From contig NC_135242.1 in the NCBI RefSeq assembly GCF_947623445.1, forward strand, positions 22,630,001 to 22,694,000: DNA of 64,000 bases. Direction: 5' to 3'. This stretch comes from Clavelina lepadiformis. Its lineage: Eukaryota; Chordata; Ascidiacea; Aplousobranchia; Clavelinidae. Positions 54,576 through 64,000 of the stretch are shown piece after piece. Positions within the stretch are counted from its first letter, which is position 1. Each line of letters begins with the position of its first letter. Below the pieces are notes generated by a model that was not told where the DNA came from, ran no database searches, and was given only the letters and a program-made list of their open reading frames with translations. The position numbers were made by a program, and so were the translations under genes.

Positions 54576-57500
54576 ATGCTATGGTTGTTACAAATGGTGT
54601 TTGGTGTCCTAACATCCTCTGTTGCTTTTGCCAAAGATCCTTTAAACCCATGTAAATCAACATCAAGCGTCAATGGAGTAGATTTCGTGTCTTGGACTGC
54701 GCAGGCTGAAGTTCCCTTGAATCTCATTCGTGAAAATTCTCCTTGGCTCGATAATTCATTTGTATATGTTGACTGTTATAGCAGAGGATTGACCTCTATA
54801 CCTCAAAGTTTATCAACAGATGTAGAGGCAATAGATTTCTCTTACAACGCAATTAGACGCGTAAAAACGAATGAATTTGGTCAATATCCCAAATTAATTC
54901 TTTTAAATTTTCTTGGAAATTGCGACAAAGGATTGACAGATTGCCGAACAGACTTTTATATTGAACCGGGCGCTTTGAATCATCTTGTTCACTTGAAGTG
55001 GTTGATCTTGTCGTTCAACTTCCTCCGTGAGTTTCCCAGGGAATTACCTACATCCATACTTGGCCTACATATACGCAAGACAGGACTAGCCGAAGTTACT
55101 ACACAACTTGACAATCTCACTAACTTATCTCTACTCTTGTGTGAGTCAAACTGTATGTCCGAGATTTTATTACATAATTGCCCGAGAAACTTTACCATTA
55201 GTCGACCCCTTCCTTCAAACCTGAAGCTCGTTGATCTACAGTTTAACAATTGGGATAGGATTCCAAGAGATTTACTTCCATCAATGCTTGAGGTTTTTAT
55301 GATGCGTGGAAACCCGGTTACTCGTTTGAGAAAAGATGAATTTGTCAACACAACCGGTATTGAGGTCTTGAACTTGGAAGGAATGGCAGAGATTGTTTCA
55401 ACGACGTTGATCATTGAAGAAGGAGTTTTTGATCCACTGACTAAGCTGCGACTTCTGAACCTCTCAAATAATCTGATTGAGTTTCTTTCAAATGAAACAT
55501 TTAGAACGAATAACGACTTGGAAATTCTAGATCTTTCATACAATTGCTTAAGAAAAACTATTTTTCAACCAACTTATTTAGCAAATTTGCTGAATATCCG
55601 CCATCTTGATTTGTCCTTCAACAACGTACCACAATGTGGAGGTTCCATGACACTAGAACTACTTCGAATAGGTCAGGTATTTTCAAACTTTTCTTCATTA
55701 GAAAAGATAATGTTCGGCTCTAAGGCCAAATTACTGACTACAAGTGAATGGTCAGTACAGTTCAATAGAATCGATAAAGACTCATTAGCAATTTTGTCAA
55801 ATTTAACTCATCTATCGACAATCGATATTTCCTACTGCAATGTTCATCACATTTCCTCCGATGCGTTGTCTGGATTACTTCAGCTTAAATCCGTCGGAGC
55901 CGCTCATAACCTGTTGGATTTTAATGGAAGATTTTTATCTGGAAAACAAACGTTTGAAAAAGACTATCCTAACATCTACCCGTCTTCGTTGCTGGAGTCA
56001 GATACGAAATGTGACAACAGTGGATTACTCGATTATTCGAACAACCAAATCACAACCATCTCAGGCAGGCAAGAGCTTCTCTTGTCAACGGCTACCGTCC
56101 TCGACTTATCTCACAATCAAATACAAGAGTTCCGCAAAGATGATTTCAAACATTTAAACAGTTTATGCAGCATTAATATATCTTTTAACCCCATTGTTGC
56201 AATAGACTCATTAACATTCAGCGCCTTACCAAACTTGCGAATGATTTCGTTGGTCGGGGAAAGCGTTTTCTTGACAAGTTATTCATTTTTGTGTCATTTA
56301 AACTCTTCCAGTGAAGTAGATCTGACCTGGCAGCAGACGGGTGAAACAATGGAAGTCGCATTAATGCAATGGCAAGAGAAGGAAAACTGCTCAGCCGATG
56401 TGGTTTTCAATTTAACTATGTCCAAGAATCTATTCAGCCAAGCGATGTTCAGAAGCAAAATAAATTTTCTCAAATTTTTCCCGCAACTTCGCTCCCTTGA
56501 GCTAAGTGATTGCGGTTTAAAGTGGAGATTACCTCAAGAGTGGTTTCAGGGTTTGAAATTTTTAGAAAGTTTGAATTTGAGCTACAATAATATGCCTGAT
56601 TTCCCATTAAATGCTTTGGAATTTACTACATCGTTACTCTTGCTCAATTTAGGCAACAATGACATTGTTCAATTGAAAGGGAATATTTCTTTTCTTGTCC
56701 ATCTAGAGATATTTATAATTTCCAACAACAAAATCAGTCATATTCAGTCCGGTTTCTTTTCACAAGTCCGACTTAAAACCCTTGACCTCAGTTATAACTT
56801 CATTAGAAGAATTGACCCAAGTATATTTAACAAAGATGCTCTTGACTCGCTTCTATATTTGGACATAAGGTGGAACGAACTCGACTGTTCTTGTGGCGTA
56901 TGGGACAGATTTTTTGTTTGGTATATTTCCGAAAGAAGTAAAAATACCGAACTTCCTGGTTTTCTTCCGGTATGCACAACAGAAATTGATCAATATTTCG
57001 GCGGCTGTGTGGCTTGCCAATCCCCGCCGAATTTAAGTGGTCGCTCACTTTCTCGGCATGGCTTCAATACATCGTGTGACCTGGTGCAACATTTCGCCTA
57101 CACGCTTACATTCACGTTATTTTTTATAATAAGGTACCTGTACCGAATAAGGCCCGGTCCCTAATAAGGCCCATTGCTCATATTTCGCAAACCCGTGCAA
57201 ATAAATAAAAGATTTTGTCCTTACATAAAAACTAATATAAATTCATGATGGTTTACCAGATTTCATCCTTGTCACGTGATCAACCGATTCGCTAGAGCAC
57301 AACAAAAATTTGATACTTGCAGTTAAGGTGGTTTTGTTAATTTAGAAAAAAAGTAAGTGAGAATTTGGCCGGTTAAATGAACTGTTGTCTGCCGGCTGAA
57401 GTTTTCATGTAACAACCAACTTAGTATTGAAAAGGATAATGCACTTTTTTTTGCTAAAACTTTTCTGATGATAAAAATGTGACGTTTTTTTCGTGGATGC

Positions 57501-58638
57501 CACATGCGCCTAATAAGGCCCATACAAGATGCTTGGCTAATTGATGTCCAGACTTCAAGAGTGGTTCCAGTCATCAGTTGGCAAATTGTTGCAATTACTT
57601 TGATGCGCCTAGTGGAATCTTTTTAAATGTTTGTACAACTTAAAATGTGAAATTTCTAATAATGTTATATGTTGTCTATTACTATGTTTTGAATCAAAAT
57701 ACTCACAAAATTGGTGGGCCTTGTTAGGAGCCTATGCTCCTAATAAGGCCCATTTTTTGGAATTTTTAATTTCTTTATAAAATTTTTTTGAGGGGTTGTC
57801 AGTTATTGTGGTTTGAATATGTTGTAGTCATATACCCTCACTAATACAATACGATTTTTCAGTCTATTCTCATTTATGGTTCTTGAGTTATTTTCAAAAA
57901 AGTGTTAGGTGGGCCTTATTCGGTACAGGTACCTTATTTCTTTTTTGCGGCACACTTGGTTATAGCAAATGGTTCAAGAGATTGGTATTTCGAAAAGTTC
58001 ATGAATATTTCAGAGTTCAATCGTTGAATTCAAAAGAAGTATACCTACTGTCCACAACAGCTGACAATGAACAAGCTTTTGTGTTCTTTGACCACATCAA
58101 TGATGAACTGGGTGACTGGGTGGATAACAAACTGGTACCTGGGATGATTAACGGAAACCCTTCCATCAAACTTCTCTTGGCTGGTTGTGACGTCGACGCT
58201 GGAATTTCTTCAACACAAAATCTTCTACGATTTGTTACCAGCTGTCGCAAAACCATCTTAATTTTTTCGGGAACATTTTGTTTCTCCCCTTCATGCAGGT
58301 AAGTTTTATACGAAATGTTTTTACCTTTTCGTCAGAAATTGATAACGGATTATATTGATGAATATAATCATGTTCATTACTCAAGCAAACAAAACTATTA
58401 TTGGTATAGGTTCGTCCTAACGGCGCTTCAGGAACTTCAACATTCTGCTGGAAGAGATCAACTGATATTAGTGGAGTGGCATGGTGAAGAAGCAGCTCGC
58501 GTTCCAGAATTAATCCAACGAACTTTTAACCGAAAATTCTACAACTTCTTGAGATTCGATTCATCAAATGATGACGACGTGATGTTCTTCGAAACACTGA
58601 GAACTGCTTTCGCGAGCAATATTGTTTTAAACGATTAG
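54576..58638 (+). pseudogene. Toll-like receptor A, split by a MITE in the membrane-spanning region
   Basis: A large first exon (54576-57131, resuming 57935-58298) and a second (58410-58638). The signal peptide MLWLLQMVFGVLTSSVAFA is followed by many leucine-rich repeats (about residues 60-760), a C-terminal cap (LDCSCGVWDRFF, YFGGCVACQS) and a membrane segment. A cytosolic TIR domain follows: FVFFDHINDELGDWV in box 1, LLAGCDVDAG in box 2. Intron phase inside the TIR matches TLR-B. A Tc1/mariner-type element at 57132-57934 sits in the membrane segment. Reading into it gives a stop at 57162-57164, so the message as it stands would make a secreted LRR protein without TIR. Leaving out the element and one TA, the frame runs on (FFIIFLFCG). 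Box 2 has Cys where TLR-B has Arg. Confidence 0.85.
57132..57934. mobile_element. Tc1/mariner-type MITE with TA duplication, inside TLR-A
   Basis: An 803-bp non-coding element with perfect 24-bp inverted ends starting AGGTACCTGTACCG and continuing AATAAGGCCC. It is flanked by TA on each side (57130-57131 and 57935-57936). The motif CTAATAAGGCCCAT occurs three times inside, near 57161, 57509 and 57741. The TA duplication points to the Tc1/mariner/pogo group. Perfect ends and duplication point to a recent insertion, and removing it restores an alignment with TLR-B that has no gap. Confidence 0.9.
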
Positions 58639-58644
58639 CTTGAC

Positions 58645-60735
58645 TCGTTGTGATTCGCACATTTGTTATTTCTTACTCAAACACACACACGGTCGTTAGC
58701 TGTTCTCTTGTGCTATACTTTTCACATAACTAACGCAACTAATGCTTATGTATTTGTTGGCGATGAGTTACTTCTATGACAGGCGATTATAAAAATCAAC
58801 CTTTACCAAAATTCTGGCACCGCATCGTAAGCTTATACTTGTATGGAGTTCTTAGCTGAACATTGGCGGAAATGCAGTTTTTATCGTAAACAAAACACCG
58901 AATGTTGTCGCCAAAGAATAGTTCCGGAAAGCACTATTTTGTAAAAGAAAAAATAAGTTTTGAAAATTGAAGAAACGGCAACGGTCTCAAATTGACTTAA
59001 TGATTGCATTTAATGTAGCATTTTCTCAGCTCGTTCACTTAAAAAACTTTTTGCCTGTTACACTTCGTTGTGGCTGGCATCCTTTTCCCGTTGAAACAGA
59101 CTCAAATCGCACTCAAATCTGATCATAAGAAAAGATTTAATTACAGTCATCTTTCACAAATGTAAAAGTATTTATAGGCATTGGCCACAGGTAAGCAAAT
59201 GGAATGGAAACTTAAGTCTTTTATTTGTTGTTTGACCCTCAAAGTTTCCGTAAAGATGAAATCATTTCAGCCTAAAATTTGAGTAGATTTTTATTTTTAT
59301 CGAAAGTAATCCAAATGATTACGAATGTCGAAACGCCTTGACGCGCGAGCATAAATAGCATAAAGCAGACAAGCAGTCAATGAAGGAATGCGGCAAGTAC
59401 GTATTTATTAATGAAAACACAGTGCAATAGTCTCAGCAAATATAGAAACTTAAACTTACAGTAAACGAACATGACGAAGTGGTACTAAAATACAAGGAAA
59501 CGTGGTGATGCCGGCACAATCTTAACAAGAAGTTGTTATCACATTGTCCGTGTATACAGTATATATCACAATGGCGGGCGTGTTTCCAAAACGTGCTGTG
59601 TACAACAACGTGTTGTGTGTCTCATACACTGGCCAACATCCGTGTAGTTGTGATAAATTTCATTTTTCTAGGATACGGAAACCTGCTGAGGATAGCGGTC
59701 GGTTTGATTTTTTCATTGTTTTATTTAATGGGGATGGTTTGTGACGTTCTTCTTTACAGCTAGTTTGTAATTTACACGCCAGACCGTTAATGTAAGGCAG
59801 TATGGTCTCCACAAACGAGTTTTTCAGATCTGTTACGTTGCAATGTTGATTTAATTCTTAGGTTTCCTTAAAACTTGACACTTGATTTTCTTCAGGACAG
59901 CTGGCTAGTTAACATTTAAGTAGTTCTAAGCCTTTTAGCCTGATGAGGTAACTTTTATTTTTTTATATCATTTATTGTTTAAATTTTTTGTAAACAGAAA
60001 AAGTTACAAGTCGTTTTAAATGAAGCATTACTAATAAGACACAGTCTATATGTACAGGTATGTTGATGTGTAGCCTACAAATCACACTTTTTATAGATAG
60101 CACTAAATTAGGCAAAAACCACGTAGGAAGTACGAAGCAAAAACATCGGCTAAATCCAAACGGCAAGAATGCGTTGTCTATATTGCCTTACGTCATTCAT
60201 GCTTGCATTGCTTCCTCGTCACGTATTTCATATGCTGTTGTGTTTTGTTTTGACGGGGCAATTATACGCAAATTGTGGCCGGTGAATTTAGGTTGTTATT
60301 CCCCAGGTCGCAAACCTGCACGACCGGTCTTGTAAGTTTCCAGTATCGTGAAATGAGATTTCAGTAAACCGATGGAGATTGAATTGAAGGGGTTGAGTTG
60401 ATCGAAGTCTAATTGAACGATATTTGATTGACATGACCGAAATTTGATTGACATGAAACCCTTGCACAGATTAAACCAAATTTGCCATAAAACCTCAACA
60501 CAGGCATTTTTAAAAAGAACGAAAGTTTTTTAAAAAGGACGAAAGAACGAAAGAAAATATTCGTGTTTTGAAAACTTTATTTAGAGAATATCCATTACCC
60601 ATGTTTCAAATTTTTCTAAGAATAAATATGGGGTAGTAAGCAATAAATGCATTGCATTTATTAGTATAGGGCAGGCTATAAACCGTATCATGTAAGCTAC
60701 TATTGTTGATTACAAAACAGGTTTTAAGAAAAGGT
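58645..60735. other. Intergenic between the two TLR genes
   Basis: About 2.1 kb. Near 60505-60560 there is a short tandem repeat of GAACGAAAG and TTTTTAAAAAGGACGAAAG units. Small open frames, such as one at 59533-59763 with a hydrophobic end, lack splice or homology support. Confidence 0.45.
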
Positions 60736-60742
60736 GGAAACA

Positions 60743-63700
60743 ATGTGGTGGCTGACAAAAATTTGCTTGATATCGGTTGTCTCTGCAAAGAATCCACTAA
60801 ATCCTTGCAAATCACCATCGAGTGTGAATGGATTGGATTTTGTTTCGTGGGTCGAGAAGTCGCAGCAAGTTCCGTTGGAGTTAATATTCGAAAATGCCCC
60901 CTGGCTGGATCATAGATATGTATATGTTGATTGCTATAGCAGAGGATTAACGGTCATTCCACAAAACTTAGCAGCCAACGTGGAAGCTTTAGATCTCTCC
61001 TACAATGCGATAAGGCAAATTAAAATGAAGGATTTCCGGCAATATCCCAAACTAAATCTTTTAAATTTACTTGGAACTTGCAACAAAGGACTCTCAAATT
61101 ACCAAGCAGATTTTTACATAGAACCCGGTGCTTTGCAAAATCTCATTCATCTGAAATGGCTGATTTTGTCGTACAACTATCTTCGTGAATTTCCAAAGCA
61201 ACTACCTCCGTCAATAATTGGTCTGGAAATAACTCAAACAGAGTTAGGTGAAATATCTTGCCAGTTCGACCATCTAATCAATTTAACTATACTTTTTAGT
61301 GAAGCAAATTGTATTTCTTTGGCTCCAACCCAAGAATGTCTGAGGAACTTTACCATCACTGGACCTCTTCCTTCAAGCCTTAAACTCGTTGATCTACAAT
61401 ATAACAATTGGAACAAGATTCCTCGAAATATACTTCCCCGTGGACTTGTAGTTTTAACCATGTATGGAAATCCGGTTACTCGTTTGGGAAAAGATGATTT
61501 TGTCAACGCAACTGGCATAAAAATATTGAATTTGGCAGGATTGTCAGGAACAGCATCAAAGATAGTGATGATTGAAGAAGGTGTGTTTGATCCACTGACC
61601 CACCTACAATCTCTTAATCTTTCAGGGAATTTTATATTTTTTTTCCCGAATGGAACGTTTAGAAATAACGGAAAATTGAAAATCCTCGATCTTTCTTTCA
61701 ACTGTTTGAAAAAAACTATTTTTGAACCAACTTATTTGAGCAATTTGGTTAACATCCGCCATCTTGATTTTTCCTTCAACAATAATCCAACTTGTGGAAG
61801 TCCGGAGGCAATAGACGTGCTACAGATGGGCCAAATATTTTCGAAATTTTCTTCGATGGAAACATTAAAACTTGGTTCTGTTGACAAGCCAATGGCTTCC
61901 GGAGATTGGTCAATTCAGTTCAATAGAATCGATAAAACTTCTTTTGCCAGTTTATCAAACTTGACTCATCTATCGACAATCGATTTTTCCTACTGCAATG
62001 TTCGTCACATCTCCTCCGATGCATGGTCTGGATTACGTCATCTTAAATCCGTCCGAGCCGCTCATAACCTCTTGACTCTCGGCAACAACACTTCTTTTGA
62101 AAAACAAGTATTCAGAAAAAAGTTTCTGAATATACCGTCTCAATTTCAATTTAATTTAAAAGGAAACTTGTTCCAGGAACCAATTTTGCCGAAAACTAAC
62201 CCGAAATGTGACAATAGCGGATTGCTCGATTATTCGAACAACCAAATCAACACAATCTCAGACAGGCAATACCTTATGTTATCAACGGCAACCGTCCTCG
62301 ATTTATCTCACAATCAATTGCAAAATTTACAAAAAGATGATCTGAAAAATTTAAAGCATTTATGCAGCATAGACATCTCTCATAACTCCTTTGTTGCTAT
62401 TGATCAGCAAACGTTCAATTCCTTGTCGAACTTGCGTCAAATGCTAATTGTAGGAAACGACATTCATTTGTGGAATTATTCATTTCTATGTGGTTTGAAT
62501 ACCTTAAGCACAGTGCAACTGACATGGCAGCAATCTGGCCAAAATACTGAAGCTGCATTAATACTGTGGCAAAAAAATGAAAACTGTTTCGCTGAATCAG
62601 TTTACGGTCTGACCTTATCTAATAACCTAATGACTTTAGCGATAGTCGCCAGTAAGCCAAAATTTTTAAATTTTTTTCCTGGAATTCGTCAACTCGTTCT
62701 TAACAATTGTGGACTTAGCTTGGACTTACCTCAAAACTGGTTTAACGGTTTAAACCATCTCGAAATTCTGGAACTGAACTCCAACGGCATGCCCAATTTT
62801 CCATCATCAGCTCTACAATTTATCCCAACGTTACGGCTCCTCGAATTAGACCACAATGATATTGTTGAACTGAAAGGAAATATTTCCTTTCTTGTTCGTC
62901 TCACAACATTTTCAATCTCTCACAATAAAATCAAATATATTCGACCCGGTTTCTTTTCTCGTTTACAACTGAAGACACTTGATCTTAGTTATAATTTTAT
63001 TCAACGGCTCGATCCAAGTATTTCCGATGAAAACATGCTGGAATCACTTCAATATTTGGACATAAGATGGAACGAACTCGATTGTTCTTGTGAGGTATGG
63101 GACAGGTTTTATCGTTGGTATATCTCTAATGAGTGCGACAATATCTACTTACCTGGTTTTCTACCAGAATGCACAGTAGAGGTTGATGAGTATTTTGGCG
63201 GCTGCGTTGCGTGCCAATCTCCGCTGAATTTGCGTGGTCGTCCGGTGTCACGGTATGGATTTAATAGGTCGTGCAATTTGGAGAGACATTTGGCCTACAC
63301 GCTTGCATTTACAACATTGTTTATGTTGTTCATTTTATGCGGCGTAGTTGGTTACAGTAAATGGTTCAGGAGATTACTATTTCGAAAAGTCAATGAATAT
63401 TTCAGAGTTCAATCACTGAAACAAGACGATATTTCTTCAACTTACCAGACACGCAAAAACGAAAAAGCTTTTGTGTTCTTTGACCACAACAATGATGAAC
63501 TTGGTGATTGGGTGGATTATAAATTGGTACCTGGGATGATTAACGGGAACCCTTCCATCGAACTTCTCCTGGCTGGTCGTGACATCGACGCTGGTGCGTT
63601 TTCAACTGAAAATCTTCTGAGACTTGTTTCGAAGAGTCGTAAAACTATCGTCTTATTTTCTGGCAACTTTTGTGACACTCTAATTTGCAGGTGGCATGAA

Positions 63701-64000
63701 CTAAAACCTAAATTTACAACATTTTAGCATGCATATAAGTGTACGTCGTTAGAGGTGTAAACTTCCTACTTATCAAATTGTTGAATTAAATATAAGGTTT
63801 ACTGCTTCTAGATTTCTGCTGACGGCGCTTCAGGAACTTCAACATTCTGCTGGAAGAGATCAACTGATATTAGTGGAGTGGCATGGTGAAGTAGCAGCTC
63901 GCGTTCCAGAATTAATCCAACGAACTTTTAACCGAAAAATTTATGATTTCCTGAGATTCGATTCATCAAATGATGACGAAGTGATGTTTTTTGAAACACT
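60743..64000 (+). CDS. Toll-like receptor B, intact as far as visible, cut by window end
   Basis: Exon 1 is 60743-63690; exon 2 starts at 63812 and runs off the window. The ATG at 60743 starts the hydrophobic leader MWWLTKICLISVVSA. Leucine-rich repeats fill most of the next 790 residues, with N-glycosylation sites. Then come the cysteine cap (LDCSCEVWDRF, YFGGCVACQS), a membrane helix (LAFTTLFMLFILCGVVGY) and a TIR domain: FVFFDHNNDELGDWV, LLAGRDIDAGAFS, KSRKTIVLFSGNF, then exon 2 with LVEWHGE and DEVMFFET. It is a pattern-recognition receptor of the surface or endosome signalling through TIR contacts. The box 2 proline (RDxxPG) is Ala here. Tandem with TLR-A and similar along its whole length. 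Confidence 0.92.

Follow-up and report, generated by a model that had tools for sequence, protein, structure and literature searches.

In Clavelina lepadiformis, the first exon of the Toll-like receptor gene TLR-A is split by an 803-bp MITE inserted at a TA dinucleotide in the membrane segment, and the assembled allele is very probably a tolerated loss-of-function allele. The window, by which we mean the whole 64,000-nucleotide stretch that was analysed, corresponds to C3:22630001-22694000 of a genome of 209 Mb in 95 contigs, representing a single haplotype, in which all genome-wide searches were carried out. We propose that the element belongs to a young, multi-copy family of non-autonomous cut-and-paste DNA transposons that would insert at TA, and that the AT-rich Phe/Ile/Leu codons of the membrane segment offered the target. 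A transposase supplied from elsewhere would act in trans on the MITE ends. Translation would proceed 10 codons into the element and stop, so that the membrane segment would be halved and the TIR signalling domain lost, and this loss would be tolerated because TLR-B and many other paralogues remain.

Structure of TLR-A and of the inserted element

TLR-A was classed as a Toll-like receptor because of its LRRs, which matched Pfam LRR_8 with an E-value of 6.5e-48, and the solved chains closest to it were those of TLR7/8/9. The part of the TIR domain encoded by exon 1 scored 19.3 bits (E = 0.001) against Pfam TIR, under the cut-off of 21.3, and the same was true of TLR-B; clear relatives scored above this cut-off. 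The LRR frame in front of the element comprised 852 open codons, and the frame behind it was also open, in agreement with the original prediction that the LRR and TIR frames are open on both sides. Removal of the element together with one TA gave a protein of 1048 residues with no stops, and, the element aside, the 1048 codons showed no stop, frameshift, or loss of a splice site. The membrane segment, which is split in the assembled allele, aligned to that of TLR-B without a gap in this element-free frame. Its spacing was equal to that in nine other TLR loci, the motif having located the segment in 9 of the 18 TIR loci scanned. This agrees with the original prediction that the membrane segment, once the element is removed, has as many codons as that of TLR-B (30 bases between matching points in both). 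The description of the exon as otherwise well-kept held for the open frames, but not for box 2 of the TIR domain, in which the Arg is replaced by Cys in TLR-A. The features are listed in Table 1.

Table 1. Positions of TLR-A, the inserted element, and TLR-B in the window
Feature	Position	Strand	Evidence or remark
TLR-A exon 1 before the element: signal peptide region, LRRs, first half of membrane segment	54576..57131	+	open frame, Pfam
Left copy of TA target duplication	57130..57131	.	single TA at C7 empty site
MITE, 803 bp	57132..57934	+	ends, family, consensus
Left terminal inverted repeat, 24 bp	57132..57155	+	
Subterminal motif CCTAATAAGGCCCA, further copies	57160-57173 and 57509-57522		
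TAA ending the TLR-A frame, after 10 element codons	57162..57164	+	
Two overlapping AATAAA signals within the element	57200..57209	+	
Imperfect palindrome, 38 bp	57715..57752	.	
Right terminal inverted repeat, 24 bp	57911..57934	-	
Right copy of TA target duplication	57935..57936	.	
TLR-A exon 1 after the element: second half of membrane segment, first part of TIR domain	57937..58298	+	open frame, Pfam
TLR-A intron, CAG/GTAAGT to TATAG	58299..58409	+	
TLR-A exon 2, end of TIR domain, TAG stop	58410..58638	+	
TLR-B, unbroken neighbour; second exon extends past the window	60743..64000	+	64% identical to TLR-A over 1043 residues

The inverted ends of the element were identical at 24 of 24 bases, and the TA duplication on either side was also exact; the ends, the duplication, and the boundaries had all been given correctly by the original prediction. 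Repeat detection returned 28 of 28 paired bases at the ends, since pairing extends over the TA and a further two flanking bases. The 24-bp end had two matches in the window at up to 3 mismatches, compared with a mean of 0.00 in 100 shuffles. Both ends begin with AGGTACC. An Rfam search of 57000-58100 gave no matches. When the two longest-looking frames of the MITE consensus were compared with Pfam, there was only one match, with an E-value of 0.06 and below its cut-off, and no transposase gene was found in these two frames.

MITE family in the genome

A genome-wide search with the 23-bp end of the element gave 346 matches (188 + 158) at up to 2 mismatches, and the reversed control gave none; an internal 33-mer gave 166 matches, again with none for the control. 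In a DNA search in which 40 of 245 candidates were scored, all 40 copies were 98-100% identical over at least 801 of the 803 bases. Among the end matches listed (100 of the 346), 39 pairs lay at a MITE-like spacing. These results indicated that the genome contains more than 100 near-identical copies of the MITE.

The TA duplication was examined in two samples: 30 of the 40 scored copies, ordered by their similarity to that in the window, and 20 further paired copies with perfect ends on C1-C3. It was present in 28 of the 30 and in 19 of the 20, respectively. Five copies were common to both samples, giving 43 of 45 distinct copies with the duplication, and in both copies that lacked it one end of the element was changed or short. 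The 45 distinct copies include the window copy and the two copies of a single inverted duplication (L016/L017). Terminal inverted repeats, a fixed TA duplication in independent copies, and a high copy number with uniform size were therefore all found, as in a MITE family. When the host flanks of 30 insertions were joined, only the insertion in the window split a long open frame (621 codons; the next longest was 134). In the pair L016/L017 (G000:C5:4501941-4503911), two oppositely oriented MITE copies with matching flanks are separated by 366 bp; the element lies here within an inverted duplication.

Empty site on chromosome 7 and age of the insertion

The flanks of the element, joined over one TA, had a single match in the genome at up to 3 mismatches. 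This match was exact (29 of 29 bases) and located at C7:3164576-3164604, and C7 did not differ from the joined flanks anywhere in the 150 bases surrounding the site (74 before and 76 after). The site lies within C7:3158332-3165378 (L039-L042), a duplicate of positions 54182-64464 in window numbering, which contains both TLR-A and TLR-B and shows about 91-95% identity with the pair in the window. Both C7 gene copies are broken by frameshifts and stops, and the C7 TLR-A has lost most of its ectodomain (window 54695-56877). Excision of such elements usually leaves a footprint. The single TA without extra bases at C7 has the appearance of a site that was never occupied. Since the target is present exactly in the C7 duplicate, with a single TA and without the element, the insertion is younger than, or separate from, the C3/C7 duplication. 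The C7 site is a paralogue, and it shows the ancestral state rather than a polymorphism. In the same duplicate, approximately 160 bp corresponding to window 59108-59268 are missing between short direct repeats; these represent either a second small insertion in the window or a deletion on C7.

Against the consensus of 30 copies, the window copy showed 2 changes in 803 positions, both of them private, and against its nearest copy it showed 4; such low divergence is that of a recent insertion. Among 20 other copies and the window copy, pairwise differences averaged 2.2% (0.25-4.5%) and private changes ranged from 0 to 17 per copy; three of the 20 had fewer than the two of the window copy. The divergence of the element was 0.0025 (95% interval, 0.0003-0.0090). 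For the TLR locus, the K80 distance between C3 and C7 was 0.043 over 57935-59100 and 0.086 over 59270-60700, corresponding to 0.022-0.043 per lineage. On this comparison, which is a relative dating that uses no mutation rate, the insertion would be roughly a tenth as old as the C3/C7 duplication, with a wide margin. The recent MITE insertion into the membrane segment that the original prediction put forward was thus upheld: the family exists, its copies carry TA duplications, the window copy is nearly identical to others, and C7 has an empty site.

Constraint on TLR-A and the TLR family

The dN/dS ratio between TLR-A and TLR-B over 1043 codons was 0.25 by NG86 and 0.34 by YN00. These values indicate that the two genes diverged under purifying selection and that the gene was long useful. 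The dS between them dropped from 0.8-1.1 before the element site to approximately 0.5 after it, and gene conversion in the TIR part could account for this drop. Box 2, which lies within 57937-58298, reads Cys-Asp in TLR-A, compared with Arg-Asp in TLR-B, in the C7 copy, and in 13 of the 13 other loci in which the motif was found. The change from Arg to Cys therefore arose on the TLR-A lineage after the duplication, and it may precede or follow the insertion. Because the Cys is present in TLR-A alone, the TIR half of the receptor may have been flawed anyway and the gene weakened before the insertion. After its split from the C7 copy, TLR-A acquired 6 non-synonymous and 4 synonymous changes and the C7 copy 10 and 8, respectively, as counted from 836 sites at which 5 of 33 differences entered neither lineage's count. 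The changes on TLR-A are too few to decide, and do not show constraint.

A TIR family search of the genome gave 18 matches; the box-2 motif was found in 13 of them, and 11 of these 13 loci lay in open frames of at least 987 codons. There were thus at least 13 further TLR-type loci (L050-L059, L061, L064, and L065) in addition to TLR-A and TLR-B, which fell below the threshold of this search and are counted on top of the 13. With so many other TLR loci, the loss of one member of the expanded Clavelina family should be easy to bear. An account of Ciona robusta gives three recognised TLRs (PMC12816324), and in amphioxus, the genes that are present in some individuals and absent from others include TLR genes (PMC12373286). 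A search of the titles of open-licence papers gave none on Clavelina TLRs or on MITEs in Clavelina. The exon-1 donor of TLR-B, CAG/GTGGCA, is weak compared with the GTAAGT of TLR-A, and the change is common to the C7 copy of TLR-B (window 63685-63812).

Predicted product and alternative explanations

In the assembled allele, the TLR-A frame entered the element and met the TAA, which gave a predicted TIR-less receptor of 862 residues. AATAAA was present at 57200 and 57204, 36 bp past the stop, and a short ectodomain message ending at these element-borne signals is plausible. The best 19-residue hydrophobicity (Kyte-Doolittle) was 2.14 in TLR-B and 2.0 in the element-free TLR-A, and fell to 1.39 with the element; because of this drop, membrane anchoring of the product from the assembled allele is doubtful. 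The same features could be read as signs that selection keeps the insertion, with the element's stop and polyadenylation signals ending the message of a TIR-less and possibly secreted decoy. The stop after 10 codons, the AATAAA signals, the lower hydrophobicity, and the fully open LRR frame all agree with such a product, and vertebrates have decoy TLRs that lack the membrane and TIR portions (PMC12816324). A very young insertion, however, would keep an open frame without any selection, and for TIR-less TLR-like genes of Ciona the same source reports that convincing evidence for a soluble-TLR function was not found. We consider selection for a decoy improbable, and give similarly little credence to its fuller form, in which a segregating MITE allele would express the TIR-less ectodomain and be kept beside an intact TLR-B. 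Less probable still is that splicing removes the element like a newly gained intron, so that TLR-A continues to be made. Among the GT sites of the window scored with a donor matrix, AAG/GTACCT at the left end ranked at the 94.3rd percentile, and 14 of 30 donor-acceptor pairs kept the frame open. By the same measure the real TLR-A donor ranked at the 99.9th percentile, and about a third of random pairs keep the frame anyway. None of the 14 frame-keeping pairs restored the element-free protein, all of them altering the membrane segment, and with only 1 of 30 insertions splitting a long open frame, the family is no recurrent source of introns in exons.

An explanation that deserves more attention, although we regard it as unlikely, is that TLR-A was already dying and that the insertion was late and neutral. 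The box-2 Cys in TLR-A only, the 6 non-synonymous against 4 synonymous changes on its lineage, and the dead C7 duplicate speak for this explanation; the lack of any other stop, frameshift, or splice-site loss over 1048 codons speaks against it, and the Cys change and the insertion could have occurred in either order. The least credible explanation was an assembly artefact in which a repeat was misjoined into the exon. The element is indeed a high-copy repeat, but its exact ends and TA duplication are as expected from transposition, and it carries two private bases. The quality value of 67.4 estimated for the published C. lepadiformis assembly (210.1 Mb, 102 scaffolds; PMC10884593) also argues against an artefact. 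The tolerated loss-of-function allele was accordingly preferred.

Comparison with known systems

We take MITEs with TA target duplications to be grouped with the Tc1/mariner and pogo-like kind. The element resembles these MITEs in its TA duplication, short perfect inverted ends, lack of a transposase gene, and many near-identical copies. It differs from them in its length of 803 bp, which is large among MITEs, its AGGTACC ends, the CCTAATAAGGCCCA motif, and the 38-bp palindrome, and its superfamily is only putative. Like TLR pseudogenes and null alleles that arose through an insertion or stop, TLR-A has otherwise open LRR and TIR frames, one disabling lesion, and intact paralogues nearby; it differs from them in that the lesion, a transposon within the membrane-segment codons, could be dated and the same target exists empty at another place in the genome. 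The predicted ectodomain without a TIR domain recalls the soluble or decoy TLRs of vertebrates, whereas TLR-A keeps half a membrane segment. Introners are transposon-derived introns. The insertion resembles them in being a DNA transposon that landed in a coding exon and has GT and AG close to its termini, but no GT-AG pair restores the element-free TLR-A protein and the other copies examined split no long frames.

The TLR-A insertion is a clean and young, but ordinary, transposon knock-out, and the presence of a single MITE in a single member of a large set of TLR paralogues is by itself unsurprising. As a transposon-broken immune receptor it is unusually clean: the ends are exact, divergence is low, the same genome has the exact target in an empty state, and an unbroken paralogue in tandem serves as control. 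Should the insertion segregate, natural TLR null alleles would become available in a sea squirt, an animal closely related to vertebrates, for testing the redundancy of the expanded TLR family, and copies of the MITE could be used directly as insertion markers.

Source of the transposase

The TA target and the ends presumably fit Tc1/mariner or pogo-like transposases, and the TA duplication found is that of this superfamily. Both kinds of transposase occur in the genome: DDE_3 had 15 matches among the 56 candidates scored, and DDE_1 had at least 150 (150 of 150 scored, from 277 candidates), several of them in long open frames. On C1-C4, none of the 96 DDE_1 matches (each frame counted once) and 8 DDE_3 matches lay within 7 kb of a perfect end among those listed; the nearest was 7,371 bp from such an end (C1-C4, ends among the 100 of 346 listed). 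A search for end patterns followed by a base absent from the MITE gave no element with a transposase, and the loci with an unpaired end (L004 and L087-L095), when read, were full, truncated, or interrupted MITE copies with no autonomous partner. That these searches turned up no transposase partner counts against the proposed origin of the insertion.

Two candidates were rejected. A seemingly autonomous copy of 2.1 kb (L043, G000:C3:15190500-15195000) proved to be a MITE with another element nested in it, and at L022 a Tc1-like transposase, which lies 1.1 kb away from a copy of the MITE, had a different end at its visible side. The element nested in L043 was 1.3 kb long, with 187-bp inverted ends and approximately 9 bp of MITE sequence duplicated, and by eye its frame looks like a Mutator-type transposase. 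At L047 (G000:C7:15197829), TATA repeats flank an isolated match of 18 bases to the MITE end; no element follows this match, which may be an unusual remnant of excision. L048 carried the first 13 bases of the end followed by other sequence, with a MITE copy approximately 1.1 kb on. A pogo-like transposase in a long open frame was located approximately 9 kb past the window (L044, G000:C3:22702774-22703364).
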